Assembly: GCF_030548295.1 (NCBI RefSeq)
Contig: NZ_JAUOSB010000002.1
Location: 64,001-128,000 of the forward strand
Reading direction: 5' to 3'
Source of the DNA: Wenyingzhuangia sp. 2_MG-2023
GTDB taxonomy: Bacteria; Bacteroidota; Bacteroidia; Flavobacteriales; Flavobacteriaceae
Length of the DNA stretch: 64,000 nt
The notes under the pieces are model-generated. The model made no database searches, had not been told where the DNA came from, and saw nothing but the letters and a program-made list of their open reading frames with translations. Below, piece by piece: positions 8,261-63,906 of this stretch. Made by a program: the position numbers and the translations under genes. Positions within the stretch are counted from its first letter, which is position 1. The number at the start of each line of letters is the position of its first letter.

Positions 8261-9379
8261 ATGCGAAAAATTATTTTGTCCGTCCTAGGGATATTATTTA
8301 TTATTGGGGCCGTTTTACTTTCTAGGAACATCATAGCCAATAAAACAAAACCCAAACCTGTAATTAAAAAAACAGTAAAATCTATTTTAACAGACACTGT
8401 TCTAAACAAAGAAATTCCAATTATTATTCCAGCCAACGGTAGTTTGGTAGCAAAACAACGAATAGAATTGTATTCCGAAGTACAAGGAATACTAAAACTT
8501 GGAAAAAAATTATTTAAAACTGGACAATTTTATCACAAAGGTGAAACATTAATTCACATTGATGCTGCTGAATATTCTGCAAATGTACAATCTGCTAAAA
8601 GTGTTTTGTACAATGATCTTGTCGCTATCATGCCAGATTTACGTTTGGATTTTCCTGAAGTGTATGAAAAATGGCAAAGTTACCTAAGTAGTTTTGATAT
8701 GAACAAGCCTATCCACCAACTTCCAAAAATGACAACAGAGAAGGAAAACTTTTTTATTGTAGGACGTGGAATTGTAAGTAGCTATTACAATGTTAAAAAC
8801 CTAGAAGAGCGTTTGGGTAAATATAAACTAACGGCTCCTTTTGATGGAATTCTTACGGAAGCATTGGCTACAGAAGGAAGTTTGATTAGAAGCAATCAAA
8901 AATTAGGAGAGTTTATCAGTCCTTCTATCTACGAAATGCAAGTTTCTATCAGCAAATCTTTTGCCCATGTGTTAGAAACCGGAAAACAGGTGGCTTTGAG
9001 AAATTTAGACAAAACAGAAGAATACACTGGTACTATTACCCGTATCAACGGAAGTGTAGATCCAGAGACTCAAACATTTGAAGTTTTTATAGAAGTAAAA
9101 GGAGAACGACTAAAAGAAGGAGTGTATTTAGAAGCTTTGATTGATGCTAAAAAAGTAGAAAATGCTATCGAAATTAACAGAAATCTATTGTTAGAAAATA
9201 ATGAAATATTTTGCGTTGTAAATAAAACACTTCAAAAAATAACGGTAAACCCTGTATATTTTTCAGACACAAAAGCCGTCTTACAAAACATTCCTAACGG
9301 AACCGTAATTTTAAAGAGTCCTGTTGCGGGAGCTTATGCAGGTATGTTGGTACGTCCTTATAAAAACACTGTAAACTAA
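8261..9379 (+). CDS. RND efflux periplasmic adaptor subunit (membrane fusion protein)
   Basis: This 372-residue protein is the adaptor of a tripartite efflux pump, linking the inner-membrane transporter to the outer-membrane channel. One N-terminal membrane anchor (about residues 4-22) is followed by a lipoyl-like half (IELYSEVQGIL), a short helical region, the second lipoyl half (YKLTAPFDGILTEALATEGSLI) and beta-barrel and membrane-proximal parts. The helical hairpin is short for the family. It is first in a tight operon, and its stop codon overlaps the ATG of the transporter gene (TAATG). The exported substrate cannot be predicted. Confidence 0.92.
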   Translation: MRKIILSVLGILFIIGAVLLSRNIIANKTKPKPVIKKTVKSILTDTVLNKEIPIIIPANGSLVAKQRIELYSEVQGILKLGKKLFKTGQFYHKGETLIHIDAAEYSANVQSAKSVLYNDLVAIMPDLRLDFPEVYEKWQSYLSSFDMNKPIHQLPKMTTEKENFFIVGRGIVSSYYNVKNLEERLGKYKLTAPFDGILTEALATEGSLIRSNQKLGEFISPSIYEMQVSISKSFAHVLETGKQVALRNLDKTEEYTGTITRINGSVDPETQTFEVFIEVKGERLKEGVYLEALIDAKKVENAIEINRNLLLENNEIFCVVNKTLQKITVNPVYFSDTKAVLQNIPNGTVILKSPVAGAYAGMLVRPYKNTVN

Positions 9380-12300
9380 TGAGAAAAATTATTAGTTATT
9401 TCATCAAATATCACGTAGCGGTAAATGTTTTTATCCTTGCTTTTATTGTTTTCGGAATTTTTGGAATCTCCTCTTTAAAGTCTTCTTTTTTCCCTTTAGT
9501 AGATTCTAAAATCATCAATATAAGTATTGTTTATCCTGGTGCAGCTCCACTAGAAATTGAAGAAGGAATTGTATTGCAAATAGAAGACAATTTAAAAGGT
9601 CTTGAAGGTGTTGACAGAGTTACCTCTATTTCTAAAGAAAACAGTGGAACCATTACTGTAGAAATAGAAAAGGGTGAAAACATTGATTTTATGCTCTTAG
9701 AAGTAAAAAACGCAGTGGATAGAGTTCCTAGTTTTCCTACAGGAATGGAGCCTTTGGTGGTTTCCAAACAAGAAGAAGTTAGACAAACCATCTCTTTTGC
9801 TATCAGTGGTAAAGAAGTCCCTTTGGCTACCTTAAAGCAATTGGCCAGATCTGTTGAAACCGATTTAAGAGCTATTGATGGTATTTCTCAAATAGAAATT
9901 AGTGGTTTTCCCGATGAGGAAATTGAAATTGCTGTTAACGAAACTAGTTTGATTGCCTACAATTTGACTTTTTCTGATGTAGCAGATGCAGTTAGCAATT
10001 CTAACATTTTGACAACAGGAGGAGAAATTAAAACAGATGTTGAAGAATACTTAATACGAGCTAACAACAAGTCTTATTACGGTCACGAATTGTTTAATAC
10101 CATTGTAAAAGCAAATGCTAACGGAACAGTGATTCGTTTAAAAGATGTTGCAATTATTAGAGATCGTTTTGAAGAGACTCCTAATGCTACTTATTTTAAC
10201 CAACAATTGTCTGTAAACATAACGGTTACAAGTACCAATAATGAAGATTTGATTACGTCTGCAGAAAAAATCAAAGACTATATTGAAGTTTACAATCAAA
10301 AAAGTGAAAACATTCAGATAGATGTTATTAGAGACATGTCTAAAACATTGGTGCAACGTACAGAATTGCTTACTGAAAATGCCATTGTAGGAATGATTTT
10401 GGTCTTGGTATTTTTATCCTTATTCTTAAATACTCGTTTGGCCTTTTGGGTAGCTTTTGGTTTGCCTATTTCCTTTTTAGGAATGTTTATTTTTGCCCAT
10501 CAATTTGATGTAACCATCAACGTGCTGTCACTTTTTGGAATGATTATCGTAATTGGTATTTTGGTAGATGATGGAATTGTAATTGCTGAGAATATTTACC
10601 AACATTATGAGAAAGGAAAATCACCTATACAAGCTGCAATAGATGGAACTATGGAAGTAATTCCTCCTGTAGTTTCTGCAATCATCACAACACTTTTAGC
10701 CTTCTCTCTCTTCTTATTTTTAGACAGTAGAATTGGAGAATTTTTTGGAGAAGTTTCTGTAATTGTAATTTTAACGTTAGTTGTTTCTTTAGTAGAAGCC
10801 CTGATTATTTTACCTGCTCACTTAGCTCATTCCAAAGCATTACAACCTTATGTAGAAGAAGAAAATCCATCAAAACTAAAACTCTTTTTTGGTAAAATGA
10901 GGATTATTAATAAGCTAGGAGATCAACTAATGACTTATTTAAGAGATAAAATATACAGTCCTACTTTAGATTTTGTTTTAAAATTTAAAGTTTTATCAAT
11001 AAGTATCTTTTTTGGTTTTCTAATTTTAACTGTTGGATCTATTATGGGAGGTATTATCAAAGTAACTCTTTTTCCAAGTGTTGCAAGTGATAGTGTTACA
11101 ATACAACTTGAAATGCCCGCAGGAACCAACGAAAAAATTACAGATTCAATTATTTCGCTCATCGAAGAAAAATCTTTTATTGTAAACCAAGAATTTACCG
11201 AAAAGTTTTTTGATAGTTCAACCGAAAAACAACTATTTGAAAACACCATTTTAAGTTTCACAAGTAGTTCTAGCGCAAAACTTACCATAAATTTATTACC
11301 TGGTGAAGAAAGACCTAACGAAATTAAATCGTTTATGATTAGTAACCGATTGCAAGAATTGGTAGGACCTGTAGTTGGTGTAGAAAAATTACTTTACAAC
11401 TCTGGGGGTAACTTTGGGGGTAGCCCTGTTTCTGTTTCTCTTTTGAGTAATAATATTGATGAACTAAAAGCTTCTAAAAAAGAATTGAAAGCTTATCTAG
11501 AAACCAATCCGCTATTAAAAGATATAGAAGACAACGACCCTGTGGGAATTAAAGAAATTAGAATTCTCTTAAAAGAAAATGCTTATCTTCTTGGGTTGGA
11601 TTTAAAAACGGTGATGAATCAAGTACGTTCTGGTTTTTTTGGAGTACAAGCACAACGTTTTCAACGAGGACAAGATGAAATTAAAGTTTGGGTTCGTTAC
11701 GATAGTGACAACAGAAATTCTATCAACGATTTAGACAAAATGCGTATTGTTACTCCTTCAGGAAACAGAGTGTTTTTTAAAGATATTGCGAGTTATGACA
11801 TCATTCGTGGAGAAGTAGCCATCAATCACTTAGAAGGACAACGAGAAATTCAGATTTCTGCAGATTTAAAAAATCCTAACGAAAGTAACACTGAAATTTT
11901 AGACGATATAAGAACTAATTTCATTCCCGATTTGCAAAGTAAGTATCCTTCTATTTCAGCATCTTTTGAAGGGCAAAACAGAGAAGCTAGCAAGCTATCT
12001 TCTTCTTTAAGCACCGCTGGTTCTATTATTTTGCTTTTGATTTACATCACCATTGCATTTACGTTTAGAAGTTATAGTCAGCCTTTATTATTGTTGCTAT
12101 TAGTACCTTTTAGTTTGACTGCAGTTGCCTGGGGACATTGGATTTTAAATTTCCCTGTAAACATTTTATCGCTACTAGGAATTATTGCTTTGATTGGTAT
12201 TATGGTAAATGATGGGTTGGTTTTGATTGGAAAATTCAACACCAACTTAAAAGAAGGGATGAAATTTGACGATGCCTTATTAGATGCTGGTAAATCTAGA

Positions 12301-12579
12301 TTTAGAGCCATCTTTTTAACCTCATTAACCACCATTGCCGGTTTAGCTCCTTTGCTTTTAGAAAAAAGTAGACAAGCACAATTTTTAAAACCTATGGCTA
12401 TTTCAATATCCTTTGGTATTGCATATGCTACTATACTAACCCTTTTAGTTTTACCATTATTTTTGTCTTTTAGCAATAGTGTTAAGAAGAATGTAAAATG
12501 GTTAGCTACCGGAAATACTGTAAGTAAAGAAGAAGTTGAACGCGCAATAAAAGAACAACATGAAGAACAAGAGCACTAA
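9379..12579 (+). CDS. RND multidrug/metabolite efflux transporter, HAE1-like
   Basis: This 1066-residue inner-membrane transporter uses the proton gradient to drive export. Length and layout are typical of the AcrB/HAE1 family: a first membrane helix near residues 11-30, a large periplasmic loop, a helix bundle from about residue 335, then a second half repeating the pattern. The family motif GILVDDGIVIAENIYQH sits in the fourth helix (about residues 394-410), with two adjacent aspartates at the usual proton-relay place. The second-half counterpart is GIMVNDGLVLIGKF. The gene overlaps both neighbours, which indicates translational coupling. Confidence 0.95.
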   Translation: MRKIISYFIKYHVAVNVFILAFIVFGIFGISSLKSSFFPLVDSKIINISIVYPGAAPLEIEEGIVLQIEDNLKGLEGVDRVTSISKENSGTITVEIEKGENIDFMLLEVKNAVDRVPSFPTGMEPLVVSKQEEVRQTISFAISGKEVPLATLKQLARSVETDLRAIDGISQIEISGFPDEEIEIAVNETSLIAYNLTFSDVADAVSNSNILTTGGEIKTDVEEYLIRANNKSYYGHELFNTIVKANANGTVIRLKDVAIIRDRFEETPNATYFNQQLSVNITVTSTNNEDLITSAEKIKDYIEVYNQKSENIQIDVIRDMSKTLVQRTELLTENAIVGMILVLVFLSLFLNTRLAFWVAFGLPISFLGMFIFAHQFDVTINVLSLFGMIIVIGILVDDGIVIAENIYQHYEKGKSPIQAAIDGTMEVIPPVVSAIITTLLAFSLFLFLDSRIGEFFGEVSVIVILTLVVSLVEALIILPAHLAHSKALQPYVEEENPSKLKLFFGKMRIINKLGDQLMTYLRDKIYSPTLDFVLKFKVLSISIFFGFLILTVGSIMGGIIKVTLFPSVASDSVTIQLEMPAGTNEKITDSIISLIEEKSFIVNQEFTEKFFDSSTEKQLFENTILSFTSSSSAKLTINLLPGEERPNEIKSFMISNRLQELVGPVVGVEKLLYNSGGNFGGSPVSVSLLSNNIDELKASKKELKAYLETNPLLKDIEDNDPVGIKEIRILLKENAYLLGLDLKTVMNQVRSGFFGVQAQRFQRGQDEIKVWVRYDSDNRNSINDLDKMRIVTPSGNRVFFKDIASYDIIRGEVAINHLEGQREIQISADLKNPNESNTEILDDIRTNFIPDLQSKYPSISASFEGQNREASKLSSSLSTAGSIILLLIYITIAFTFRSYSQPLLLLLLVPFSLTAVAWGHWILNFPVNILSLLGIIALIGIMVNDGLVLIGKFNTNLKEGMKFDDALLDAGKSRFRAIFLTSLTTIAGLAPLLLEKSRQAQFLKPMAISISFGIAYATILTLLVLPLFLSFSNSVKKNVKWLATGNTVSKEEVERAIKEQHEEQEH

Positions 12580-13882
12580 AACCTGTCTATGGATTGCATT
12601 TGCTTTTAGCATTTCAACCCTAAAAGCACAAGAGCTTTTAACACAAGACCAAGCCGTTGCGTTAGCATTGCAAAACAACTTTGGTATAAAAATGGAGAAC
12701 AACAATGTAGCAATGGCTAAAAACAACGCTAGCATTTTAAACTCTGATTACCTACCTACGTTGTCTGGTAGTGCTGGTGCCAACACTAATTTAGACAATA
12801 CAGAAGCCGTATTTTCTAATGGGACTGTTACTGTTTTAAACAAAGCTAAAAGTTCTAGTTACAATGCTTCTTTAAATATCAATTACACTCTTTTTGATGG
12901 ATTTGGTAGAGAATACAACTACAAAAAATTAAAAGAAGAGTATCATTTATCTGAATTGCAAGCTAGAGAAACCATAGAAAACACCATCATTCAGTTGTTT
13001 TCTTTGTATTACAATGTGGCTTTACTTAAAGAAAATACAGCTACGTTATCTCAGAGTTTTGAAATTTCTAAAGAAAGATCTAAAAGATCTGTCTATCAAT
13101 TTGACTACGGTCAAAACACCAAACTGGAAGTATTAAATGCCCAAGTTGATGTGAATAACGATAGCATACAGTTGATGCAAATAGACCAAGAACTAAGCAA
13201 TGCCAAACGCAATTTAAATGTGATTTTAGGAAATGCCATTAAAACAGATTTTGATGTAAATACAGAAGTTGGTTTCAATCTAAAGCAAAAAAAGGAACAA
13301 TTGCTAAACAAGGCAAAAAGTAGAAATATAGCACTGTTAAAATCTGACACCAACATTGCCATTCAAGAACTGGAGGCTAAGCTTATCAAATCAGAATTTA
13401 TACCTACATTGGGACTTACAGGTAGTTACGGATGGTCTAAAAACAACAACAATGCTGCATCATTTTTAACCACAGCTACCAACACTGGTTTGTCTGCGGG
13501 CTTGAGTTTGTCATGGAGTTTGTTTGATAGTAAAAAATACGTTTCTGTTCGAAACACAAAACTCAGTTTAGAAAATGAAAAACTTGCCCAACAAAATATC
13601 TTGATAGAAATAGAAAGAGATTTTAACAATGCTTGGGAAGATTATCAAAACAAATACAAAATTTTTCAAATACAGGAACTGAATATAGAGACTGCTCAAA
13701 ATAATTTTGACAGAACTTTAGAAAAATTTAAGTTAGGACAACTAAACTCTATCGACTTTAGACAAGCACAACTGAACTTATTAAATGTACAATTGAACAA
13801 AAGTCAAGCAAAATACGAAGCAAAAGTTGCTGAATTACAATTGTTATTTTTAAGTGGAGATTTGTTAAATCAAGAATTTTAA
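12560..13882 (+). CDS. TolC-family outer membrane efflux channel
   Basis: This 440-residue protein starts with a signal peptide (cleavage probable after STLKAQ) and contains two outer-membrane efflux protein repeats of long coiled-coil helices (for example residues 170-215 and 360-420). It would form the outer-membrane exit duct for the pump encoded just upstream. Its start overlaps the transporter gene by 20 bases, so the three genes form one unit. A terminator shared with convergent bshA follows. Confidence 0.94.
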   Translation: MKNKSTKTCLWIAFAFSISTLKAQELLTQDQAVALALQNNFGIKMENNNVAMAKNNASILNSDYLPTLSGSAGANTNLDNTEAVFSNGTVTVLNKAKSSSYNASLNINYTLFDGFGREYNYKKLKEEYHLSELQARETIENTIIQLFSLYYNVALLKENTATLSQSFEISKERSKRSVYQFDYGQNTKLEVLNAQVDVNNDSIQLMQIDQELSNAKRNLNVILGNAIKTDFDVNTEVGFNLKQKKEQLLNKAKSRNIALLKSDTNIAIQELEAKLIKSEFIPTLGLTGSYGWSKNNNNAASFLTTATNTGLSAGLSLSWSLFDSKKYVSVRNTKLSLENEKLAQQNILIEIERDFNNAWEDYQNKYKIFQIQELNIETAQNNFDRTLEKFKLGQLNSIDFRQAQLNLLNVQLNKSQAKYEAKVAELQLLFLSGDLLNQEF

Positions 13883-15462: not shown

Positions 15463-16428
15463 CTATTTTATTAGAACTAATGCTTGATACATTATAAACC
15501 TTAAATAATCAATAGCTTCAATATTCTCTTCATCCAATAGTTCTATTCTCTTAAACATCAATAATGAAAATTTTAATAAAAAATCTATTACATTCCTAAT
15601 TCTTGTTTTATCTAATTCTCTAATTAAATATTTTTTTATTTTTTTCACTCCATCTCTCTTTGCTTTTTCGATTTTTTCTCTAACCACAAATTTAATTTGT
15701 TCAGGATTTTTTATATTAGAAATCTTAGATATATCATCAAATAATTCATCATGAATATTTTTAGCTTCTGATATATTATTCAGCTCAGTCATAGCTGTTT
15801 TAGAAACTTGATTATATTTAATTGATAAAATATCAAACTTTATATTGCTAGGCAACATAATCAATCCTTCTCTGTTTTTCTCATCAAAAAAAAGAGAACA
15901 ACCCGCCGAAAATCTCAAAGCCTCTCTCTTAATCTCATCATTAGATATTACAATAATATTTTTGAGATAATCAAAATTAAATTTTACAAGATTACTGTGT
16001 TCGTTTTGAATAAGTCTATTTGCATATTTATCCATTTGGTATAAGCAAGAGAAAAAATCTCTATTAGCTGAATAAATAGGCCATACAGAAATGTTTTTTA
16101 CACCTAAACTTTCAGAATAATCATTATTACATATCTTTTGAAAATTAACAGTAAATTCCTTTTGATCATATAGAGATATATTCTCTAATGAACATAATAA
16201 ATCTATTTTATTGAATTTTGAATTCATTAACTTCTGAGCCTCAACTACCGTTTTAGCTCCTTTTATATTAATAAATTCATCTTCTATTGATTTAATATTC
16301 AATAATTCTAAAAACTCTATAGACATAGAGTCCTCTCCTAATAATTTAATTAAATCTGAAACCTTAATTCCAGTATCTTCTTTTAAAACATTTTCTTTTT
16401 TTAATGTTTTTTTGGTAAAATTCATCAT
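15463..16428 (-). CDS. Hypothetical protein, no recognised family
   Basis: The frame encodes 321 residues from the ATG at 16428; the codon before it is a GTG. I recognise no domain. It appears soluble and mostly helical, rich in Lys, Ile, Asn and Glu, with no signal peptide or membrane segment. A charged helical stretch (about residues 240-275, EKIEKAKRDGVKKIKKY) precedes a hydrophobic C-terminal part. By eye it is AT-richer than its neighbours. It lies between tRNA-Phe and a small-RNA candidate, a common place for acquired DNA. I found no duplicated tRNA end or integrase. It may be an accessory or strain-specific gene. Confidence 0.7.
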   Translation of the reverse strand: MMNFTKKTLKKENVLKEDTGIKVSDLIKLLGEDSMSIEFLELLNIKSIEDEFINIKGAKTVVEAQKLMNSKFNKIDLLCSLENISLYDQKEFTVNFQKICNNDYSESLGVKNISVWPIYSANRDFFSCLYQMDKYANRLIQNEHSNLVKFNFDYLKNIIVISNDEIKREALRFSAGCSLFFDEKNREGLIMLPSNIKFDILSIKYNQVSKTAMTELNNISEAKNIHDELFDDISKISNIKNPEQIKFVVREKIEKAKRDGVKKIKKYLIRELDKTRIRNVIDFLLKFSLLMFKRIELLDEENIEAIDYLRFIMYQALVLIK

Positions 16429-16521
16429 CACTTAATAAGTTATTAACATTCAAAACAACCCTTATTCCCTTTAGAATAAAGCTCTGTTTGAATATTTATT
16501 AAAAAATTCGGAAATAATTAT

Positions 16522-16553
16522 TTTGTAAGAGAAACTAGAATTAGTTACTTTTG
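16522..16553 (+). promoter_or_regulatory. Near-perfect Bacteroidota promoter for a small RNA
   Basis: TTTG (16522-16525), 20 bases, then TACTTTTG (16546-16553) match both boxes of the consensus. No open frame of any length follows on the plus strand, so the transcript is most likely non-coding. Initiation is expected near 16558-16560. Confidence 0.7.
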
Positions 16554-16557
16554 AAGT

Positions 16558-16679
16558 AAATAAGGAAAGACGAGGTAATCTCTGTCTGTTTCTTCTTTTT
16601 TGAAAATAAATTTTTGAGTTCGACGGCAAAAATTTTCAAATTAAAAAATTAAGGGGTATTTCCAGTATCCCTTTTTTTT
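16558..16679 (+). ncRNA. Candidate small non-coding RNA of about 120 nt
   Basis: The interval is bounded by a consensus promoter and an intrinsic terminator and contains no credible coding frame. By eye it can fold into three parts. The first is a 5' hairpin (GGAAAGACGAG with CTCTGTCTGTTTC, bulged). The second is a long AU-rich hairpin whose inner stem TTTTTG/CAAAAA closes the loop agttcgacgg and whose outer part pairs TTTGAAAA with TTTTCAAA. The third is the terminator. I do not recognise the class. 6S-type RNA of Flavobacteria is one possibility that a covariance model could test. It converges with the nrdA gene. Confidence 0.55.
16652..16679 (+). terminator. Intrinsic terminator of the small RNA
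   Basis: AGGGGTA pairs with TATCCCT (one G:U) around a seven-base loop, directly followed by T residues on the plus strand. Confidence 0.8.
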
Positions 16680-16732
16680 ATGCTTATTATTTTATATCCC
16701 TCTGTATTAATTAAAAGGTTAAACAAATTATT

Positions 16733-16793
16733 AAAAAAACTCCTAAGAGTATTAGTGTGCGATAATATCACTACATCGAAAAAGCACTTAGGA
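16733..16793 (-). terminator. Probable terminator of nrdB-nrdA
   Basis: On the minus strand ACTCCTAAG and CTTAGGAGT form a 9-bp stem with a long internal region, followed by seven T residues. The long loop makes it less typical than others in this window, but it sits just past the nrdA stop codon. Confidence 0.7.
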
Positions 16794-16813
16794 GTATATA
16801 TTTACTTTATTTT

Positions 16814-19195
16814 TTAAGATCCACACATTTCACAATCGTCTGGATTCTCTTTAGACTGCAATACCATCGCTTTAAACTCTTCTGCAGACAATGGTTCGTC
16901 TTCTTGTTTCTTTTCGTTTGACAGCGTAAACTTAATTGCATTTACTGCTGATTTGGTTCTTAAGTAATACATACCTGTTTTCAATCCTGATTTCCACGCA
17001 TAAAAGTGCATTGAAGTCAATTTAGAATAGTTGGCATCTTCCATAAACAAGTTCAATGACTGAGATTGATCGATAAAATATCCTCTTTGACGAGACATGT
17101 CAATAATATCTTTCATACTCAATTCCCAAACTGTTTTGTACAAATCTTTCAACTCTTGAGGAATTTCTTCCATGTGTTGAATAGATCCATTTGCTCTCAT
17201 CAACTCTTCTTTCAAATTGTTGTTCCACAAACCTAACTCTACCAAATCTTCTAACAAGTGTTTGTTTACTACAATAAATTCACCAGACAATACTCTACGG
17301 GTATAAATATTTGATGTATAAGGTTCAAACGCTTCGTTATTTCCTAAAATCTGAGAAGTAGATGCTGTTGGCATTGGAGCAACTAACAATGAGTTACGAA
17401 CACCATTTTTCATTACTTTTTCTCTTAAAGACTTCCAATCCCAACGACCACTTAAATCTTCATCATTAACGCCCCACATGTTAAATTGAAACTCTCCTTG
17501 CGACATTGGAGAACCTTCGAACGTAGAATAAGCTCCTTTTTTGGTGGCAATTTCCATAGAAGATTCAACCGCAGCAAAATACAACGTTTCAAAAATATCT
17601 TTGTTCAATTCTTTAGCTTGATCTGAAGTAAACGGCATGCGTAACATGATAAAAGCATCGGCCAAACCTTGAATTCCTAATCCTACCGGACGGTGTCTCA
17701 TGTTTGAATTCTCCGCTTCTTTTACAGGATAGTAATTTCTATCAATAACCGTATCTAAGTTTCTCGTTACTTTTTTCACCACTTTGTACAACTTATCGTG
17801 ATTGAAAAACTTTTCTCCTTTTTTGTTGGTATCCACAAACATTGGAATGGCAATAGAAGCCAAGTTACACACAGCAACTTCATCTTTTGCAGTGTATTCC
17901 ATAATTTCTGTACACAAATTAGAAGAACGAATAACTCCTAAATTCTTTTGATTTGATTTGCGGTTTGCAGCATCTTTGTACAACATGTATGGGTTTCCTG
18001 TCTCAATCTGAGCTTCTAGTACTTTTTCCCACAACTCACGAGCTTTAATGGTCTTACGTCCTTTTCCTTCTGTTTCGTATTTGGTGTACAAAGCTTCAAA
18101 TTCTTCTCCGTAAGTATCATACAAACCTGGGCATTCATTAGGACACATCAATGTCCATGTAGAATTTTCCTCAACACGTTTCATAAACAAGTCGGAAATC
18201 CACAATGCCAAAAACAAATCTCTAGCACGTTTTTCTTCTGCTCCTGTATTTTTTCTTAAATCTAAAAACTCAAAAACATCGGCATGCCAAGGTTCAATAT
18301 AAATAGCAAAAGAACCTTTACGCTTTCCTCCTCCTTGATCTACATAACGAGCCGTATCATTGTACACTTTTAACATTGGAATAATTCCGTTAGAAGTTCC
18401 GTTAGTACCACGAATGTAAGAACCTGTAGCACGAATGTTGTGAATAGACAAACCAATTCCCCCAGCAGACTGAGAAATTTTAGCTGTTTGTTTTAATGTA
18501 TCGTAAATACCATCTATACTATCGTCTTGCATTTGCAATAAAAAACAAGAAGACATTTGTGGTTTTGGTGTTCCTGAATTAAATAACGTTGGTGTTGCAT
18601 GCGTAAAAAACTTTTTACTCATTAAATTATACGTTTCAATAGCTTCCTCAATATCATTTAAATGAATTCCTACCGCTACACGCATCAACATGTGTTGTGG
18701 ACGTTCTGCTATTTCACCATTGATTTTCAACAAATAAGAGCGTTCTAAAGTTTTAAAACCAAAATAATCGTAATTAAAATCTCTATCGTATACAATAGAT
18801 GAATCTAACAAAGCTGAGTTTTCTTGAATCACATTAAACACTTCATCAGACAATAAAGGAGATTTTAAACCTGTACGGGGGTTTACGTACTCGTACAAAT
18901 CTTTCATAGTTGTAGAGAAAGATTTTTCTGTATTCTTATGTAGGTTAGAAACTGATATTCTAGCGGCTAATTTTGCGTAATCTGGATGAGCAGTAGTCAA
19001 TGTTGCTGAAATTTCGGCTGCAAGATTGTCCAATTCAGAAGTGGTAACCCCATCATACAACCCTTCAATAACTCTCATGGCTACTTTTACAGGATCTACC
19101 AAAGGATTCAACCCATAACAGATTTTTCTAATTCTAGCCGTTATCTTATCAAACATTACAGACTCCTTTTGTCCATTTCTTTTTATTACGTACAT
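16814..19195 (-). CDS. nrdA: Class I ribonucleotide reductase alpha subunit with N-terminal ATP-cone
   Basis: This 793-residue catalytic subunit reduces ribonucleoside diphosphates to deoxyribonucleotides. Residues 1-90 form an ATP-cone, the overall-activity site. The catalytic barrel carries the first redox cysteine in MSSCFLLQ and the Asn-x-Cys-x-Glu active site in SNLCTEI, with its partner cysteine in VAVCNLAS. The Tyr-Tyr radical relay lies in GMYYLRT. The C-terminal shuttle pair is CEMCGS. The sequence is closest to the eukaryotic-type class Ia enzyme. It lies about 100 bases downstream of its beta subunit gene. A second, differently built alpha subunit is at 21926. Confidence 0.96.
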
Positions 19196-19292
19196 AAGCT
19201 TAGTTTTTGTTAATTAATAGGGACTAACAATCTAACAACGTTGCAAAAGCAATGCTGCAAAAAAGTTAAAATATAAATTTATTCTGTTTGTT

Positions 19293-20264
19293 TTAGAAAT
19301 CAGCATCAAAGCTAATCTCACCTGTACCTCCAGATTTCACACCTGCTTTTTGATAATCAGATACTCTTTTCTCAAAGAAATTTGTTTTTCCTTCTAAAGA
19401 AATCATATCCATAAAATCAAAAGGATTGGTAGATCCGTATACTTTCTCACATCCAAACTCTACCAATAATCTATCTGTTACAAACTCTAAATATTGACTC
19501 ATCAATTTAGCATTCATTCCAATCAAACTAACAGGTAAAGACTCAGTAATAAATACTTTTTCTATATCCAAAGCATTGGTGATGATCTCTACAATACGTT
19601 CTTTTGGTACTTTGTTTATAATATGATTGTTGTGCAAGTGTACTGCAAAATCACAATGCAAACCTTCATCACGAGAAATCAACTCATTTGAAAATGTCAA
19701 TCCTGGTAACAAACCACGTTTTTTCATCCAGAATATAGCACAGAAACTTCCTGAAAAGAAAATTCCTTCTACTGCTGCAAAAGCAATCAATCTTTCTGCA
19801 AAAGATTCTGAATCTATCCATTTTAAAGCCCAATCTGCTTTTAATTTAATCGCTGGAAAATACTCAATTGCTTTAAAAAGTTTGTTCTTTTCTTCTTCAT
19901 TTTTCACATAAGTATCAATCAACAAAGAGTATACTTCTGAGTGAATGTTTTCCATCATAATTTGGAAACCATAGAAAAATTTAGCTTCTGCATATTGAAC
20001 TTCACTGACAAAGTTTTCGGCCAAATTTTCATTTACAATTCCATCAGATGCAGCAAAGAATGCTAATATGTGTTTGATGAAATAACGTTCATCATCATTT
20101 AATTTAGTTTCCCAATCTACCACATCTTGGTGTAAATCAATTTCTTCTGCTGTCCAAATGCTTGCTTCTTGTTTTTTATACCATTCCCAAATATCTTGGT
20201 GTTGTATAGGAAAAATTACAAATCTATTAGGGTCGTCTTGTAAAATCGGTTCTATTTGGGACAT
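19293..20264 (-). CDS. nrdB: Class I ribonucleotide reductase beta subunit, eukaryotic type
   Basis: This 323-residue radical-generating subunit pairs with the alpha subunit downstream. Di-metal ligands are visible: Asp in FFAASDGIV, Glu and His in [10 protein letters not shown], Glu in AVEGIFFSG, and Glu/His in [10 protein letters not shown]. The radical tyrosine is in place, seven residues after the first bridging Glu. The C-terminal tail ends in SFDADF, resembling the eukaryotic R2 tail that docks on alpha. The gene is transcribed away from the second reductase locus, and 370 bases separate the two start codons. Confidence 0.96.
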
Positions 20265-20634
20265 TTTATATTGTGTATGAGTTAGTTATCTTTTTTTATG
20301 ACTTTAGCAAAGATTGTAAAAAATAGTCTTAAAAGAAAGATATACTTTTCCACAAAGCTCTAAAGTTCTTAACAAAATGGAATTCTAAACATATGTCTAT
20401 ACTATTAAAACAAGCTTAAAAAGAGAATCTCAAAATGAGATTTCAGCCTTTTATTTTTTGTTTTTATTAGTTTTTTCGCTGTTTCTAAATGTTAAAAACT
20501 AATTAGTTTTTCTCTCAAGCTCAACAAAATCAGTATTTAGAGACATTCTAAACATTGTCGATAACTAAATACACCACGTCTCCATCTCAGCCTATTTATT
20601 CTATAATTTTATATGAAATAAAAAACGCACTGTA
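20265..20634. promoter_or_regulatory. Shared divergent regulatory region between two ribonucleotide reductase loci
   Basis: This 370-base gap has no credible gene. It must hold the promoters of both divergent nrd operons. A perfect 18-base palindrome, AAAAACTAATTAGTTTTT, lies at 20494-20511, and a short inverted repeat (ATCTCA-aaa-TGAGAT) near 20425-20445. A minus-strand box close to the -7 consensus (AATCTTTG, 20315-20308) would serve nrdB. I see no match to the usual NrdR box, so the regulator is unknown. Confidence 0.5.
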
Positions 20635-21906
20635 ATGATATCAAAAGTCATAAAAAGAGATTATACTACTACTGATTTTAAAATTTCTAAAATTAGTAGT
20701 GCCATATATGCCGCTATGAACTCTGTAAATACAGGCTCTATTAAAGAAGCTAACGCAATAGCTATTAAAGTTTTAGAAAAATTAAATATTTGCTCACTAG
20801 AAACCAAGTACTATACACCAACTGTTGAAGAAATTCAAGACATAGTAGAGGCAGAATTAATGCACAGTGAGTTTTTAAATGTTGCCAAATCTTATATTTT
20901 ATATAGAAACGAACAAAAAAGAAAACGTAAGAAAAATGTATTTGAGAAGAGAGTCAACCTTAAACCGTATGAATATCCTGAACTAAATGAATATGTAGAT
21001 GCTATTAGACATTCTTATTGGATTCATACAGAATTTAACTTTACTAGTGACATTCAAGATTTTAAATCTAGATTAACTCCACCTGAAAAAAGTGCTATAA
21101 AAAACACCATGTTGGCTATTTCTCAAATAGAAGTTGCTGTTAAAAATTTCTGGGGAGATTTGCATCACAAAATGCCAAAACCAGAAATTGGTGCCGTAGG
21201 AGCTACTTTTGCAGAAAGTGAGGTAAGACACCACGATGCCTATTCTCATTTATTAGAAATTTTAGGGTTGAACGAAGAATTTAACAACCTTAAAAAGAAT
21301 CCTAGCATTATGAAAAGGATTCATTATTTAGAAAAATCTCTAGTCAATTCTAAAAGCAATAACAACAAAGAATACACAGAGGCTATTTTATTATTTTCTT
21401 TATTTATAGAACACGTTTCTTTATTTTCTCAGTTCTTAATTATCATGGCTTTTAACAAGCACAAAAACATGTTAAAAGGAATTTCTAACGCTGTAGAAGC
21501 TACTTCTAAAGAAGAACAAATACATGGCGATTTTGGTATAGATTTACTTAAAATCATCAAAGAAGAAAACCCTGATTGGTTTACCAAGGATTTTGAACAA
21601 ATGATTCAATTGATCTGTGCAGAAGCTTACCAAGCAGAAACTGGTGTTGTCAACTGGATTTTTGAAAACGGTGAATTAGACTTTTTACCTGTAAATGTTA
21701 TTCAAGAATTTATTAAAAACCGTTTTAATAAATCTCTTGAAAGCATCAACATCAGCCCTATATTTAAAATTGATGAAACATTGCTAAGTCAAACAGAATG
21801 GTTTGATGATGAAATTATTGGAACAAAACACGGTGATTTTTTTGTAAAACGATCCATCAACTACAGCAAAAGAACTAGAAGCATCACCAAAGACGATTTA
21901 TTTTAA
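20635..21906 (+). CDS. nrdB: Ribonucleotide reductase beta subunit with N-terminal ATP-cone
   Basis: The protein has 423 residues. Residues 1-95 are an ATP-cone (VIKRDYTTTDFKISKIS, then EIQDIVEAELM), a domain normally found on the alpha subunit. The rest is a class I beta subunit with likely metal ligands E166, E196, H199, E259, E294 and H297, and a tyrosine at 203, seven residues after E196. This is the arrangement known from Leeuwenhoekiella blandensis NrdB, where dATP binding to the beta cone causes inactive oligomers and the cofactor is dimanganese. The partner gene begins 19 bases downstream. Metal content and radical type cannot be read from the sequence. Confidence 0.93.
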   Translation: MISKVIKRDYTTTDFKISKISSAIYAAMNSVNTGSIKEANAIAIKVLEKLNICSLETKYYTPTVEEIQDIVEAELMHSEFLNVAKSYILYRNEQKRKRKKNVFEKRVNLKPYEYPELNEYVDAIRHSYWIHTEFNFTSDIQDFKSRLTPPEKSAIKNTMLAISQIEVAVKNFWGDLHHKMPKPEIGAVGATFAESEVRHHDAYSHLLEILGLNEEFNNLKKNPSIMKRIHYLEKSLVNSKSNNNKEYTEAILLFSLFIEHVSLFSQFLIIMAFNKHKNMLKGISNAVEATSKEEQIHGDFGIDLLKIIKEENPDWFTKDFEQMIQLICAEAYQAETGVVNWIFENGELDFLPVNVIQEFIKNRFNKSLESINISPIFKIDETLLSQTEWFDDEIIGTKHGDFFVKRSINYSKRTRSITKDDLF

Positions 21907-21925
21907 GCTCCCTAAAAAACATACT

Positions 21926-23647
21926 ATGATAGATATCAATACAGAAAACAACGTTAACATAAAAAAAGACACTGAGTTTAAATGGTTAACAGAACACAGT
22001 AGAAATTTTTTAGGAGCAGGATACCTTTTAGAAGGTGTGAGTCCAGAAGAACGTATTAAAGAAATTGCAGAACACGCAGAAAAAATATTAAAATTAGACG
22101 GATTTGCAGACAAGTTTTACTACTACATGTCTAAAGGTTATTACTCCTTAGCCTCTCCTGTTTGGTCTAATTTTGGAAAAAAAAGAGGACTGCCTATTAG
22201 TTGTTTTGGTTCTCATGTAGCAGATGATATAGGAGATATTTTATACGCTCAATCAGAAGCAGGAATGATGTCTAAATTAGGAGGAGGAACTTCTGGTTAT
22301 TTTGGAAAACTAAGACCTAGAGGAGCAGATATTAGCAACAACGGAAAATCTTCTGGTGCCGTACATATGATGCAACTTTTTGAAACCATGGTTGATGTGG
22401 TAAGCCAAGGGTCTGTAAGAAGAGGACGTTTTGCTCCTTATCTAGACATAGAACATGCTGATATTATGGAATTCTTAGAAATTGGTACCGAAGGGAACCC
22501 TATTCAAGAGTTGACTCATGGAGTTTGTGTTGGAAATGATTGGATGCAAGAAATGATTGATGGTGATGAGCAAAAAAGAACCGTATGGGCTAAAGTCTTA
22601 CAAAGAAGATGCGAAATAGGATATCCTTATGTTTTCTTTAAAGACAATGCCAACAACAATACTGTTGATGTTTACAAAGACAAAGGACACACTATTTACG
22701 GTAGTAATCTTTGCTCAGAAATTATGCTCCCTACCAATGATGATTGGTCTTTTGTATGTGTACTTTCTTCTGTAAATATTTTACATTACGACCAATGGAA
22801 AGATACCGATGCTGTTGAAACTATGGTCTACTTTTTAGATGCTGTATTAGAAGAGTTTATATCTAAATTAGAAAACTATAGAGATTCTGAAAGTAAAGAC
22901 GATCAATTAATTTTCCACTTTATGGAAAAAGCATATAATTTCTCTAAAGAAAACCGAGCTTTAGGTTTAGGAGTCTTAGGATGGCATTCTTTCTTGCAAT
23001 CTAAAAACCTAGCTTTTGATTCTCAAGAAGCGTTCAACTACAATTCTGAAATATTTAAATTCATCAAAGAGAAATCTTACAAGGCTTCTGAAGAAATGGC
23101 TAAACTGTATGGAGAACCAGAAGTTTTAAGAGGGTATGGTCGTAGAAACACTACTTTAAATGCCATTGCTCCCACTACCTCTTCGGCTTTTATCTTAGGA
23201 CAAGTATCTCAAGGAATAGAGCCTATTTGGTCTAATTGTTACGTAAAAGATATTGCGAAAGTTAAAACAACTATAAAAAATAAATATCTTGAAGACCTTT
23301 TAGAAACAAAAGGTAAAAACACCAAAGATGTTTGGAAAAGTATTAGAGACCGTGACGGTTCAGTGCAGCACTTAGAATTTTTAACTCTTCATGAAAAAGA
23401 AGTGTTTAAAACCTATGCAGAATTAGATCAGCTTTCTATTATTTATCAAGCAGCGAATAGACAAAATCACATAGATCAAGGACAGTCTATTAATATTATG
23501 GTACACCCAGAAATGCCTGTGAAAGATTTGAACAAAATCCACACGACGGCATGGCAATTAGGTGTAAAGTCTCTATATTATCAACACAGTATGAACGCTG
23601 CACAAAAATTTAAACAAAAAAAAGAATGTACTAGTTGCGAAGGGTAA
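21926..23647 (+). CDS. nrdA: Short ribonucleotide reductase alpha subunit lacking an ATP-cone
   Basis: This 573-residue catalytic subunit is much shorter than the 793-residue NrdA nearby. It starts straight into the catalytic domain with no ATP-cone. Key residues are present: C93 (ISCFGS), N261-x-C263-x-E265 (SNLCSE), C278, the relay Y551-Y552 and C-terminal cysteines C568 and C571 (CTSCEG). It belongs with the cone-bearing beta subunit encoded 19 bases upstream, so overall activity control has moved to beta in this enzyme. A strong terminator ends the two-gene operon. Confidence 0.94.
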   Translation: MIDINTENNVNIKKDTEFKWLTEHSRNFLGAGYLLEGVSPEERIKEIAEHAEKILKLDGFADKFYYYMSKGYYSLASPVWSNFGKKRGLPISCFGSHVADDIGDILYAQSEAGMMSKLGGGTSGYFGKLRPRGADISNNGKSSGAVHMMQLFETMVDVVSQGSVRRGRFAPYLDIEHADIMEFLEIGTEGNPIQELTHGVCVGNDWMQEMIDGDEQKRTVWAKVLQRRCEIGYPYVFFKDNANNNTVDVYKDKGHTIYGSNLCSEIMLPTNDDWSFVCVLSSVNILHYDQWKDTDAVETMVYFLDAVLEEFISKLENYRDSESKDDQLIFHFMEKAYNFSKENRALGLGVLGWHSFLQSKNLAFDSQEAFNYNSEIFKFIKEKSYKASEEMAKLYGEPEVLRGYGRRNTTLNAIAPTTSSAFILGQVSQGIEPIWSNCYVKDIAKVKTTIKNKYLEDLLETKGKNTKDVWKSIRDRDGSVQHLEFLTLHEKEVFKTYAELDQLSIIYQAANRQNHIDQGQSINIMVHPEMPVKDLNKIHTTAWQLGVKSLYYQHSMNAAQKFKQKKECTSCEG

Positions 23648-23665
23648 CAAAATATTTTTCACCAT

Positions 23666-23699
23666 AAAAAAGGCTCAAAATTAATTTTGAGCCTTTTTT
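23666..23699 (+). terminator. Intrinsic terminator of the second nrd operon
   Basis: AAAAAGGCTCAAAAT pairs with ATTTTGAGCCTTTTT around a two-base loop, followed by T residues. It may also serve the convergent DUF3109 gene. Confidence 0.92.
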
Positions 23700-23726
23700 A
23701 TTTTGCTTCTTTTAAAGAAGAAAGTC

Positions 23727-24311
23727 TTAATCTGTCTTTTTTTGTTTTTTCCATTCTTCTGCCACCTTTTCTAATTCCATATACCAATTTTCTCCAAATT
23801 TTAAAATCAGTGCATTTTTAAGAAACTTATATACAGGCACTTGCAATTCTTTTCCCAAAGTACAGGCATCATCACAAATATCCCATTTGTTATAATTTAC
23901 CGCAGCAAATTCAGTATAATCTTGAACTCGGATTGGGTACAAATGACAAGATATTGGTTTTTTCCAATCCACAAGTCCTTTATTGTAAGCTTGTTCAATT
24001 CCGCACGAAGTAATTCCTTTTTCATCAGACGTTACAAAAGCACATTCTTTATCATTCACCAAAGTAGTCTCATGCTCCCCAAAAGGAGATGTAGTATATG
24101 TACCCTGTTCTTCTATCGCCTTTACTCCTTCTGGCCTTAACAAATGTTTTATTTTAGGATAAACACTATTAAGCTTTTCAATTTCTTCATCTAACACTGG
24201 AGCTCCAGCATCACCAGCAACACAACATTCACCTTTACAAGCTGAAATGTTACACACAAAATCATTTTCAATAACTTCTTCCGAAACAATGGTTTTACCT
24301 ATCTGAAACAT
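23727..24311 (-). CDS. DUF3109 family cysteine-rich protein
   Basis: This 194-residue soluble protein has clustered cysteines: CNISACKGECC near the N-terminus, SCGIEQAYN and SCHLYP in the middle, then CDDACTLG. The pattern matches DUF3109, a Bacteroidota family related to the YkgJ-type putative zinc or iron-cluster proteins. The biochemical role is unknown. A terminator separates it from the hemD operon upstream, so it probably has its own promoter. Confidence 0.85.
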   Translation of the reverse strand: MFQIGKTIVSEEVIENDFVCNISACKGECCVAGDAGAPVLDEEIEKLNSVYPKIKHLLRPEGVKAIEEQGTYTTSPFGEHETTLVNDKECAFVTSDEKGITSCGIEQAYNKGLVDWKKPISCHLYPIRVQDYTEFAAVNYNKWDICDDACTLGKELQVPVYKFLKNALILKFGENWYMELEKVAEEWKKQKKTD

Positions 24312-24326
24312 ACTTTTTTAAGATAA

Positions 24327-24354
24327 AAAAAAGCCTATTTAAAAATAGGCTTTT
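24327..24354 (-). terminator. Terminator of the DUF4271-hemD operon
   Basis: AAGCCTATTT and AAATAGGCTT form a 10-bp stem followed by eight T residues on the minus strand, 20 bases past the hemD stop codon. Confidence 0.88.
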
Positions 24355-24374
24355 ATGTTATATTTAAAATAAAA

Positions 24375-25124
24375 TTATTTTTTATTTACTTCTTTTATAT
24401 ACTTTTCCAAAGCCATCGTCATTGATGGTGTTTCTGGAGAAGGTGCAGCAATATCTACTTTTAATCCAGCATCTGTAGCTGCTTTTACAGTAGAGTTTCC
24501 ATAAACTGCAATTCTGGTATCGTTTTGTTCAAATTCTGGAAAATTCTTAAATAATGAATCAATTCCTGAAGGACTAAAGAAAACCAATACATCATAAAAA
24601 ACATTTTTTAAATCAGACAAATCACTAGTCACAGTTCTGTACAAGTCTAATCTTTTCCATTGAAGACCCATTGCATCTAATGATTCTGGAATTAAATCTT
24701 TCAACTTATCTGATGATGGTAATAAGAATTTTTCTGTTTTGTGTTTTTTAATCACTTCACACAATTCTGGAAAGCTTCTTTTTCCTACATAAATTTTACG
24801 TTTTCTATAAACCACATATTTTTGCAAATAATAGGCAACAGCTTCTGATTGGCAGAAATACTTCAATTCATTTGGCACTTTGTATCTCATCTCCTCTGCA
24901 ATTCTAAAAAAGTGATCTACTGCATTTCTACTCGTAAGTATAATTGCAGAATATTTACTCAAATCAATTTTTTGATTGCGAACTTCTCTAACGGACAAAC
25001 CTTCCACATGTATAAAAGACCTAAAGTCAATTTTGACTTTTTGCTTTTCTGATAAAATGGTAAATGGGGATTGTTGGTCTGTTTTCGGTTCTGGTTGTGA
25101 AACTAATATTGTTTTTACTTTCAT
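24375..25124 (-). CDS. hemD: Uroporphyrinogen-III synthase
   Basis: This 249-residue HEM4-family protein closes and inverts ring D of hydroxymethylbilane to give uroporphyrinogen III in haem synthesis. The family is poorly conserved, but characteristic segments are visible: the first lobe start TILVSQPEP, SAIILTSRNAVDHFF, and in the second lobe YDVLVFFSPSGIDSLF and VYGNSTVKAATDAG. It lies seven bases behind the DUF4271 gene, a pairing often seen in Flavobacteriia. Confidence 0.88.
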   Translation of the reverse strand: MKVKTILVSQPEPKTDQQSPFTILSEKQKVKIDFRSFIHVEGLSVREVRNQKIDLSKYSAIILTSRNAVDHFFRIAEEMRYKVPNELKYFCQSEAVAYYLQKYVVYRKRKIYVGKRSFPELCEVIKKHKTEKFLLPSSDKLKDLIPESLDAMGLQWKRLDLYRTVTSDLSDLKNVFYDVLVFFSPSGIDSLFKNFPEFEQNDTRIAVYGNSTVKAATDAGLKVDIAAPSPETPSMTMALEKYIKEVNKK

Positions 25125-44890: not shown

Positions 44891-47800
44891 ATGAAAAATT
44901 ATTTTATCAAAAGGAATAAGACCCTTGATATATTAAGTACTAACAGTAAACTCAAAATTTTCTTTTGTCTTTTCACATTTTCTTTCTTACACATAAACGC
45001 TACAAATACAAACAAAATAGAAACAAACGCAATTTATGCACAGCAAAAAACAACAATTACAGGAACAATTTCTGATAAGGATGGACCTTTATTTGGTGTA
45101 AATATTGTTGTCAAAGGAATTCCAAAAGGAACTGTTAGCGACTTTGATGGAAACTTTAAAATGGAAATAGACAGCCCTTCAAAAACGATTTTAGTAATTT
45201 CTTATTTAGGATACAAAACACAAGAAATACTTGTAGGAAACCAAACTAATATAGATGTAATTCTTGAAAGTGATGTATCAAGTCTTGATGAAGTTGTTTT
45301 ATTAGGTTATACCACAAGAAAAAGAGGAGATTTAACAGGATCTGTATCTACCATTGCTGATGATGTTATAGAAAAATCTTCTAGTAAAGATATTGCTAAA
45401 TCTTTAGCAGGTCGTGCTTCTGGTTTAATTATTAGTGATCGTGGAGGGTATCCTGGAGCTGGTAATGGAAACGGAGGAAATACAAATGATGATACAACGA
45501 CCATTTTAATTAGAGGTATGTCTACCACAGGTAACAACTCTCCTTTAATTTTAATAGATGGAATGCAAGCCGGTTCATTTTCTCATTTATCACCACAAGA
45601 CATAGCCTCTTTAACAATATTAAAAGATGGTGCTGCTGCCATTTATGGGTCAAGAGCTGCCAACGGAGTAATTTTAATAACAACCAAAAGAGGTAAATCA
45701 GGAGATCCTAAAATTAATTTTACTACATCCTATAGCTCTTCTTCTTTTTCTAGAACTCCAAGTTTAATGTCATCTGAACAGTTTACTATTTATGAAAATG
45801 AAATTGCAGAAAGAAATGGTGCAGCTTTACCATATACTACAGAACAAATTGAAGCATACAAAACTGGAAATGATCCAATAAATTTTCCAAACACAAATTG
45901 GGCAGATTTAACCTTGGCAAATAGTTCTCCAGAGTCTCGTACTAGTTTAAGTATTTCTGGTGGTGATGAAAAAACTAGATATTTTGTTAGTGGTGATATC
46001 TTTGATCAAAAAGGATTGTATAAATCTGGAGATTTAGGTTTTAAACAAAAACAAATTAGATCAAACATTGATATTAATGTATTTGATAATTTAAAAATTG
46101 GGGTAGATTTATTAGGAAGATTTGGAGATAGAAAACAACCAGGTATAGATGCTGGATTTATTTACAAACATATCTATACAAACTTCCCTACTCAAGTAGG
46201 AATCTATCCAAATGGATTACCAGCTTTTGGAGGAGAGAACGGAGCAAATCCAGCAATTATGTCAAGTAACCAATCCGGTTCTGTAAACAGAAAAGATACA
46301 GATTTAAGAGGAAAATTTTCTTTTGATTTAAACCTAGACAAAGTTACAGAAGGTTTAAGTGTAAAAGGTTTTGCAGGAATTAGAAAAATGAATAACGATG
46401 AAAAGTCATGGTACACACCTTGGACCTATTATACTTTACAAGGAGCTGATTATATTCCTCAAACTGGTTTTTCTCAAAGAGGTCAACAAAGAATTCTAAG
46501 AAATACATTTTGGAAATACGATGAACTTTTATTAAATGCAACAATGCATTATGCTAAATCAGTAAAAAACCACAATTTTAGTGGATTTGTTGGTATAGAA
46601 AATTTAACCTCAGAAACAAGATCTTATTGGGCACAAAGATCAGGTGCTTTCCCAACAGCAACATCTACAGAGTTAACTTTTGGAGATCAAGAACAACAGT
46701 TAACATCTAGTGAGTCTACAGAATTTAAAAGATTAGATTTTTTTGGTTCTTTATCTTATGATTATGATAAAAAATATTACGTAGACTTAACCTTGCGTAG
46801 AGATGGTTCTAGTAATTTTTATACAGGAAATAGATATGGAACATTTCCTAGTCTTGCACTTGGTTGGGATATCTCTAAAGAAAGTTTTTTGGAAGATGTT
46901 TCGTGGTTAAATCAATTAAAGTTAAGAACCTCTTGGTCTAAAATGGGTAATGATAGAATTGATGCATTTCAATGGTCAACAGGATATGTTTCTGGAAACA
47001 CAAACTTAGATGCAGCTTTACCTAGATATTATGTGTTTGGTAACTCAGGTAGTTTAGTAAATGCCTTTGGGTTACAAACGTTAGCAAATCAAGAAGTAAC
47101 CTGGGAAACTGCACATATGCAAAATTTAGGATTAAACTTTACTATGTTCGATAGAAAATTTAATGCAGATATTAACTATTTCTATCAAAAAAGATCTGAC
47201 ATCTTAAGACAAGATACTGATGGCTTACCTGCCATTTCAGGAATCTCTGATGCACAAAAACCAGATGTAAACCTTGCAAAAACCAAAAGTTGGGGTTACG
47301 AATTTGAAATGTCATGGGCAGATAAAATTGGAGAAGTTAGTTATAACCTAGGGATGAATTATTCTTTAGCTAAAAACGAAGTTGTTGATATTAATGAAGC
47401 AGATGGAGTCTTGTCTTACCAAAAACAAGAAGGTAAACCAATTAATTCATTCTTAGTTTATCCTACAAATGGAATTTTCAAAGATCAAGCACAGGTAGAT
47501 GCTACTGCTGTAAAACTACCTAATACTGTTGAAGGAGAACCAATTTATGTAGATACAAATGGTGATGGTGAAATTTCAGGAGACGATAGAGTAAGAGTCG
47601 ATGAAACCAATATTCCAAACGCACAATATGGAGTTTTTGGAGGTATAGAGTACAAGAATTTTGAATTTAACTTTTTACTACAGGGACAAGCTGGTGCTAA
47701 AACATTAGTATTCTTTGATCAAGTAGGTGCTAAACCAGATTTTGTATTTAATAATAGATGGACACCTGAAAATAGAAATGCTAGTTTTCCTAGGGCTTTT

Positions 47801-48106: not shown

Positions 48107-48117
48107 AAAGAGATAAA

Positions 48118-63816: not shown

Positions 63817-63906
63817 TCTTTCTTTTGATAATTTACAAGTACACAAAGATTGTTTTTTCATAAAAAAACATTGTTCTCTTTTGTCAATGAATTGTATTTC
63901 TACGTA

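Follow-up and report, generated by a model that had tools for sequence, protein, structure and literature searches.

The ribonucleotide reductase (RNR) of Leeuwenhoekiella blandensis carries an ATP-cone on its NrdB subunit, through which ATP gives an active beta2 form and dATP a beta4 form (PMC5794259). The authors of PMC8350387 proposed that the cone sterically blocks the asymmetric alpha2beta2 complex. Class Id RNRs are defined by a Tyr/Glu pairing, with Glu for Asp as the first ligand; they conserve the Tyr universally, and in Flavobacterium johnsoniae this residue is required for activity, yet it is not oxidized to a stable radical (PMC8463856). The signature of NrdBi is a conserved Trp, with a Lys three residues earlier in the Lys subgroup. 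In L. blandensis the hydroxyl of Tyr207 lies 7.6 Å from Mn1 and is locked by Thr294, and the enzyme of Facklamia ignava showed no tyrosyl radical signal (PMC6754362). In the current study, we compare with these systems an nrdB-nrdA operon of Wenyingzhuangia sp. 2_MG-2023 (Flavobacteriaceae), located in a stretch of 64,000 nucleotides (contig NZ_JAUOSB010000002.1, positions 64,001 to 128,000; hereafter the window, to which all positions refer).

We regard it as very probable that this operon encodes a class Id (NrdAi/NrdBi) RNR of the manganese type, the activity of which would be switched by the ATP-cone on beta. The enzyme is another example of the type described in 2018, and the layout itself is not new. 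The original prediction, made from the letters of the DNA, had described a 423-residue beta with an added N-terminal cone and, 19 bases on, a 573-residue alpha lacking one, and both parts of this description were borne out by the open reading frames and their domains (Table 1). In the Pfam-A search, the ATP-cone profile PF03477 covers residues 4-96 of beta (E 2e-19, cut-off 25.8 bits), ahead of a core matching Ribonuc_red_sm PF00268 (residues 106-380, E 3.5e-61), and a glutaredoxin domain was not matched in beta. Two ATP-cones were found in the whole genome at E ≤ 0.001, namely the one on beta and that of a neighbouring 793-residue alpha. The only Pfam-A matches of the 573-residue alpha are Ribonuc_red_lgC and Ribonuc_red_lgN, with no match to PF03477 at E ≤ 1, and this subunit scores over the cut-off of the NCBIfam model TIGR02510 (768.7 versus 602.25 bits). 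The closest solved chains to it are 6DQX and 6DQW, which we take to be the alpha chains of F. johnsoniae, and its SCF, NLCSEI, FVCVLSS and LYYQ motifs and its CTSCEG tail presumably have the catalytic roles of their counterparts in Escherichia coli NrdA.

The spacer between nrdB and nrdA (21907-21925) measures 19 bases. Relatives of the locus were sampled as the best 80 of 553 (81 loci including our own) and fetched with flanks of 6 kb, one flank being cut by a contig end in 12 of the 80. Because beta precedes alpha in all 80 of these loci, the layout of the two genes is not due to chance. Besides, the hairpin that follows nrdA is one of three terminator-like sites in the window, against 1.0 expected.

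The best solved structure for beta is 5OLK, the NrdB of L. blandensis (667 bits, E 6.6e-200), with 299 identical residues in an ungapped alignment of 422 (71%); we assign the chains 6SF4 and 6SF5 to the same enzyme, in line with their identical aligned sequence. Residue numbers in L. blandensis exceed those of our beta by four. All 11 core positions checked are identical between the two proteins (E170, V173, K174, W177, E200, H203, Y207, E263, T294, E298 and H301 of L. blandensis), as are six of the seven positions of the cone-cone interface in the dATP tetramer (73, 76, 80, 89, 92, 93 and 95), I93 being replaced by Leu. At interface position 76, the 5OLK chain and our beta both have Glu, versus Asp in the text of PMC5794259. 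To follow these residues further, we aligned 83 cone-bearing betas (from 82 distinct genomes, since locus L119 equals L005) together with 12 of the coneless class Id betas, of which 16 had been found. V173 aside, the core positions are invariant in both sets, and the interface positions are invariant in the cone-bearing rows except in the I93 column (Leu in 74, Ile in 8, Gln in 1).

The residues of beta place it in class Id and, within it, in the Lys subgroup: the first ligand is Glu (E166) in place of the Asp expected of class Ia beside a radical Tyr, the Tyr is kept (Y203), W173 is preceded by K170 three residues before, and the Thr that sequesters the Tyr is present (T290, equivalent to T294 of L. 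blandensis). The short alpha without a cone also fits class Id, and the N-terminal cone on beta marks the cone-on-beta subgroup. In a beta tree from which the cone columns had been removed, the 83 cone-bearing rows, including L. blandensis, lie on one side of a branch with an SH-aLRT value of 97, and the 12 coneless class Id rows on another branch with a value of 98. Two results had been named beforehand as what would overturn the assignment, the lack of an ATP-cone profile match in residues 1-95 and a position outside the cone-on-beta clade. The profile does match (residues 4-96), and the core tree puts beta inside this clade, together with the proteins of W. heitensis and W. aestuarii (both 93% identical in beta).

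The enzyme thus shares with that of L. blandensis the N-terminal cone on beta, the coneless alpha, the metal-site residues of class Id with their non-radical Tyr, and the clade. They differ in their company, the second RNR of L. blandensis being of class II (PMC5794259), whereas a class Ia enzyme lies head-to-head with the operon in Wenyingzhuangia and a class III gene lies elsewhere. The class Id RNR of F. johnsoniae resembles ours in its metal-site signature, short alpha and pairing of beta with alpha; however, its beta (6CWP/6CWQ, PMC8463856) has no cone (PMC6754362). The NrdBi of F. ignava also combines class Id with a cone on beta, but it carries an extra glutaredoxin domain (Grx + ATP-cone + NrdB; PMC6187632).

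Considering the enzymes of L. blandensis, F. ignava and F. johnsoniae, beta would assemble a dimanganese (IV,III) cofactor with superoxide, and the Mn cluster itself would hold the oxidizing equivalent, with Y203 staying reduced. Beta and the short coneless alpha would form an alpha2beta2 complex reducing ribonucleoside diphosphates. With ATP bound, the cone would leave beta as an active beta2, and with two dATP per cone, as in L. blandensis, cone-cone contacts would give an inactive beta4, so that overall activity would be switched via the radical-generating subunit. We infer the same dATP switching in the Wenyingzhuangia enzyme from this likeness.

The original prediction had held the radical type open because Y203 is kept. 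This residue aligns with Tyr207 of L. blandensis, and because class Id enzymes keep this Tyr, its presence gives no ground for doubt about the radical. This settles the question as far as the family is concerned, and the partner Thr (T290) is there in our beta. A beta with the layout of L. blandensis that nevertheless uses a diiron-tyrosyl radical on Y203, as in class Ia, would account for the Tyr, but we consider its probability practically negligible given the Glu as first ligand, the class Id signature of K170, W173 and T290, the universal presence of the same Tyr in class Id (PMC8463856), and the D, N, L and I that the neighbouring class Ia beta shows in the columns of E166, K170, W173 and T290. 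Some observations do weigh against a class Id enzyme switched by its cone. Beta falls under the cut-off of every NCBIfam model (best NF007186, 152.9 versus 237 bits), its cone is identical to that of L. blandensis at only 44 of 95 positions (253 of 323 in the core), and between our strain and W. heitensis the cone changes faster than the core (85% versus 95% identity). The faster divergence within the genus, the long branch (0.94) leading to the Wenyingzhuangia cones in a tree of cones, and the neighbouring cone-on-alpha class I RNR would also suit a vestigial cone, on an enzyme that is no longer switched now that a second, cone-regulated class I RNR is at hand. Against this, comparison with the two nearest congeners gives the cone dN/dS values of 0.10 (W. 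heitensis) and 0.075, and the core 0.04; wider pairs give up to 0.16 for the cone, but these values are rough, with dS above 1. These ratios indicate that the beta cone is under purifying selection and, with the six interface residues shared with L. blandensis, make a vestigial cone very unlikely.

Table 1. Features of the RNR locus, with positions in the window.
Feature	Position	Strand	Evidence
nrdA2, alpha with N-terminal ATP-cone, 793 aa	16814..19195	-	PF03477 (residues 1-87), PF02867, PF00317
nrdB2, 323 aa, beta of the eukaryote-like class Ia type; Asp first ligand, Tyr at radical position	19293..20264	-	Pfam; R2 chain 1h0n; alignment columns
Divergent region between the two RNR operons, 370 bp	20265..20634	.	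Alignment with non-carrier congeners
nrdB, 423 aa, radical-generating beta of class Id (NrdBi) bearing an ATP-cone at its N-terminus	20635..21906	+	ORF list (ATG start), Pfam, 5OLK alignment
ATP-cone domain, beta residues 4-96	20644..20922	+	PF03477, 70.3 bits
Beta core, residues 106-380; metal ligands E166, E196, H199, E259, E294, H297; K170, W173, Y203, T290	20950..21774	+	PF00268; residue mapping
nrdA (NrdAi, short alpha without ATP-cone), 573 aa; motifs SCF 92, NLCSEI 261, FVCVLSS 276, LYYQ 550, CTSCEG 568	21926..23647	+	ORF list (ATG start), Pfam, NCBIfam, solved chains
Intrinsic-terminator-like hairpin, 17 pairs and T-run, 3' of nrdA, before convergent DUF3109 gene	23664..23701	+	Terminator scan
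DUF3109 gene, often next to one or other RNR type in Flavobacteriaceae	23727..24311	-	Pfam; synteny

The adjacent class Ia RNR is an addition to the original prediction. Its beta, encoded by nrdB2, matches the R2 chain 1h0n, presumably the mouse protein, with 465 bits, and has D and Y in the columns of E166 and Y203, so that one genome holds two RNRs head-to-head, of class Ia with the switch on alpha and of class Id with the switch on beta. The two enzymes catalyze the same reaction, but the eukaryote-like one has the cone on alpha and an Asp/Tyr site, and it is probably iron-dependent. Besides these two enzymes, the genome showed no further large subunit of class I or II. A class III (NrdD) gene with a frame of 601 residues lies outside the window (G000:C110:354063-355676), and its product seems to have no ATP-cone, because the only two cones found in the genome lie elsewhere. 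We also considered the beta cone as a recent copy of the neighbouring class Ia alpha cone and rejected it, since the two are 24% identical and fall in separate groups. In the tree of cones (18 of the 80 beta cones together with our own and that of L. blandensis, 14 alpha cones and 4 class III cones), the alpha cones group by themselves (100/100), and the beta cones stand across that branch with the class III cones, to which our beta cone is 30-34% identical. The beta cones alone form one group against the class III cones in 20% of bootstrap trees, with 2 changes needed.

In the divergent region, a block on the nrdB2 side (about 20265-20377) resembles the region upstream of nrdB2 in congeners that do not carry the cone operon. 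This block contains a DnaA-box-like site, TTTTCCACA (20346-20354, plus strand), 82-90 bases upstream of the nrdB2 start. In the 300 bp that precede nrdB2, the DnaA-box consensus TTWTNCACA occurs at 16 of 31 loci versus 2.6 expected from shuffles, and TTATCCACA at 7 of the 31 versus 0.05 expected; upstream of the cone operon, the consensus occurs in 14 of 80 loci versus 5.6 expected, all these loci being related and thus non-independent. Such sites could place the class Ia operon under replication-linked control where NrdR is missing. The NrdR model PF22811 matched none of 299 Flavobacteriaceae genomes and 9 of 14 control genomes, and RNR control in the family probably rests on this account on the cones and on further transcription control.

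The same 299 genomes were surveyed for the distribution of the enzyme. A full-length cone-bearing beta occurs in 67 of them (68-74% identity, our own beta aside), and 16 encode a coneless beta with the class Id signature, 41-45% identical to ours and forming a separate group. Strong matches to a class Ia beta (E < 1e-35, a threshold set in this analysis) were obtained in 19 of the 67 carriers versus 205 of the 232 other genomes (Fisher p 5e-21, uncorrected for relatedness). Among the 48 carriers without a class Ia beta, 18 encode a class II enzyme scoring above the model cut-off, and two of the remaining 30 a class III enzyme. This leaves 28 of the 67 carriers in which no other RNR was found, although in one of them (G149) class III gives a broken match that stays under the cut-off. 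For 19 of the 28 genomes, completeness is 90% or more and contamination no higher than 5%, each with a single large-subunit frame (594-621 aa), and four of the 19 are single-contig assemblies. A set of named carriers, 50 of the 80 loci picked with preference for isolates, of which 49 were searched, showed no further large subunit of class I or II in 20 of the 49 (e.g., Winogradskyella luteola, Lacinutrix venerupis and Robiginitalea aurantiaca) in a search for these two classes only. It was stated in 2018 that all species with a cone-bearing NrdB encode other RNRs too (PMC5794259), and the genomes in which no second RNR was found do not fit this statement. Our literature search gave no paper on the RNR of Wenyingzhuangia and no title on the dual locus or on this enzyme as the sole RNR, which is weak evidence of absence as subscription journals lay mostly outside the search.

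Within Wenyingzhuangia, four of seven genomes carry the operon, and the three non-carriers, each at least 99% complete, have the same genes around the locus, with 277-280 bp between the DUF3109 gene and nrdB2. The nrdB2 gene is present in six of the seven genomes. The exception (G303, locus L135) is a metagenome-assembled genome that is 85% complete, in which the cone operon lies beside DUF3109 in the same inverted orientation; upstream of beta it has, instead of nrdB2, a gene starting MAQKPSIPKGTRDFSPVE, which we take to be that of histidyl-tRNA synthetase. In a tree of four locus proteins, used for the order of gain and loss in the genus, the carriers form one group in 29% of bootstrap trees. 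In other genera, DUF3109 lies at most 1.5 kb upstream of nrdB2 in 18 of the 28 best-scoring class Ia loci. Relative to the cone operon, it is an upstream gene of the same strand in 39 of the 80 loci (within about 1 kb in 23, and some 3-4 kb further, with other genes between, in 16), downstream and convergent in 4, and is absent from the fetched stretch in 37. A role of DUF3109 as the downstream neighbour in most genera, which we had considered, was rejected on these counts.

The class Ia enzyme is missing from all 26 named carriers with DUF3109 upstream versus 15 of the 20 whose fetched stretch contains no DUF3109 (Fisher p 0.011, uncorrected for relatedness), and two of the three with a convergent DUF3109 have it. 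A second sample, 29 of the 66 other carriers in the survey, namely those with fetched loci, gave the same absence in 8 of 8 versus 14 of 21, again uncorrected for relatedness and with at least one genome common to both samples (L018 equals G169). Because the DUF3109 neighbourhood goes with the absence of the class Ia enzyme, we tentatively read the place behind DUF3109 as a swap locus, at which an Fe-type class Ia enzyme may have been displaced in situ by the Mn-type class Id enzyme in many Flavobacteriaceae, often leaving class Id as the sole RNR. Wenyingzhuangia would then be caught with both enzymes across 370 bp, as an Fe/Mn (or superoxide) pair with separately evolved switches, a view that is possible and to which we do not commit ourselves. 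It is about evenly balanced, on the other hand, whether the head-to-head layout is simply a chance insertion beside nrdB2A2 with no regulatory meaning, the two enzymes being independently expressed. Such an insertion agrees with the rarity of the arrangement, as just three of the 81 loci, our own and those of W. heitensis and W. aestuarii, have nrdB2/nrdA2 inside the fetched 6-kb flanks, a count to be read with the flanks cut by contig ends in mind. It also agrees with the poor alignment of the divergent region beyond the nrdB2-proximal block with non-carriers, with the lack of any Rfam match at the gathering score in 16000-25000, and with sigma-70 matches at chance level (16 found versus 14.9 expected). 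However, DUF3109 often adjoins either RNR type in other genera, so the place itself is not random.

Elsewhere in the window, an RND efflux set (HlyD-type adaptor, AcrB-type pump and OEP outer-membrane channel) occupies 8261-13882 on the plus strand. A SusC/SusD-like pair (TonB plug with CarbopepD_reg_2; SusD_RagB) and a protein having GLAA-B beta-barrel and beta-helix domains lie at 44891-49836 (plus) and 61921-63861 (minus), which suggests polysaccharide use. An open reading frame of 322 residues (15463-16431, minus) has no Pfam match at E ≤ 1e-4, and in L131 the match to its relative is split into two separate parts.

Overall, the comparison yields natural test cases in the Flavobacteriaceae: species of one genus that either have or lack the operon at a shared locus, genomes that showed no RNR besides the cone-on-beta enzyme, and genomes with two class I RNRs head-to-head on either side of a single intergenic region, the same kind of switch being on alpha in one and on beta in the other. 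Such species would allow the cone-on-beta switch to be tested in the living cell.

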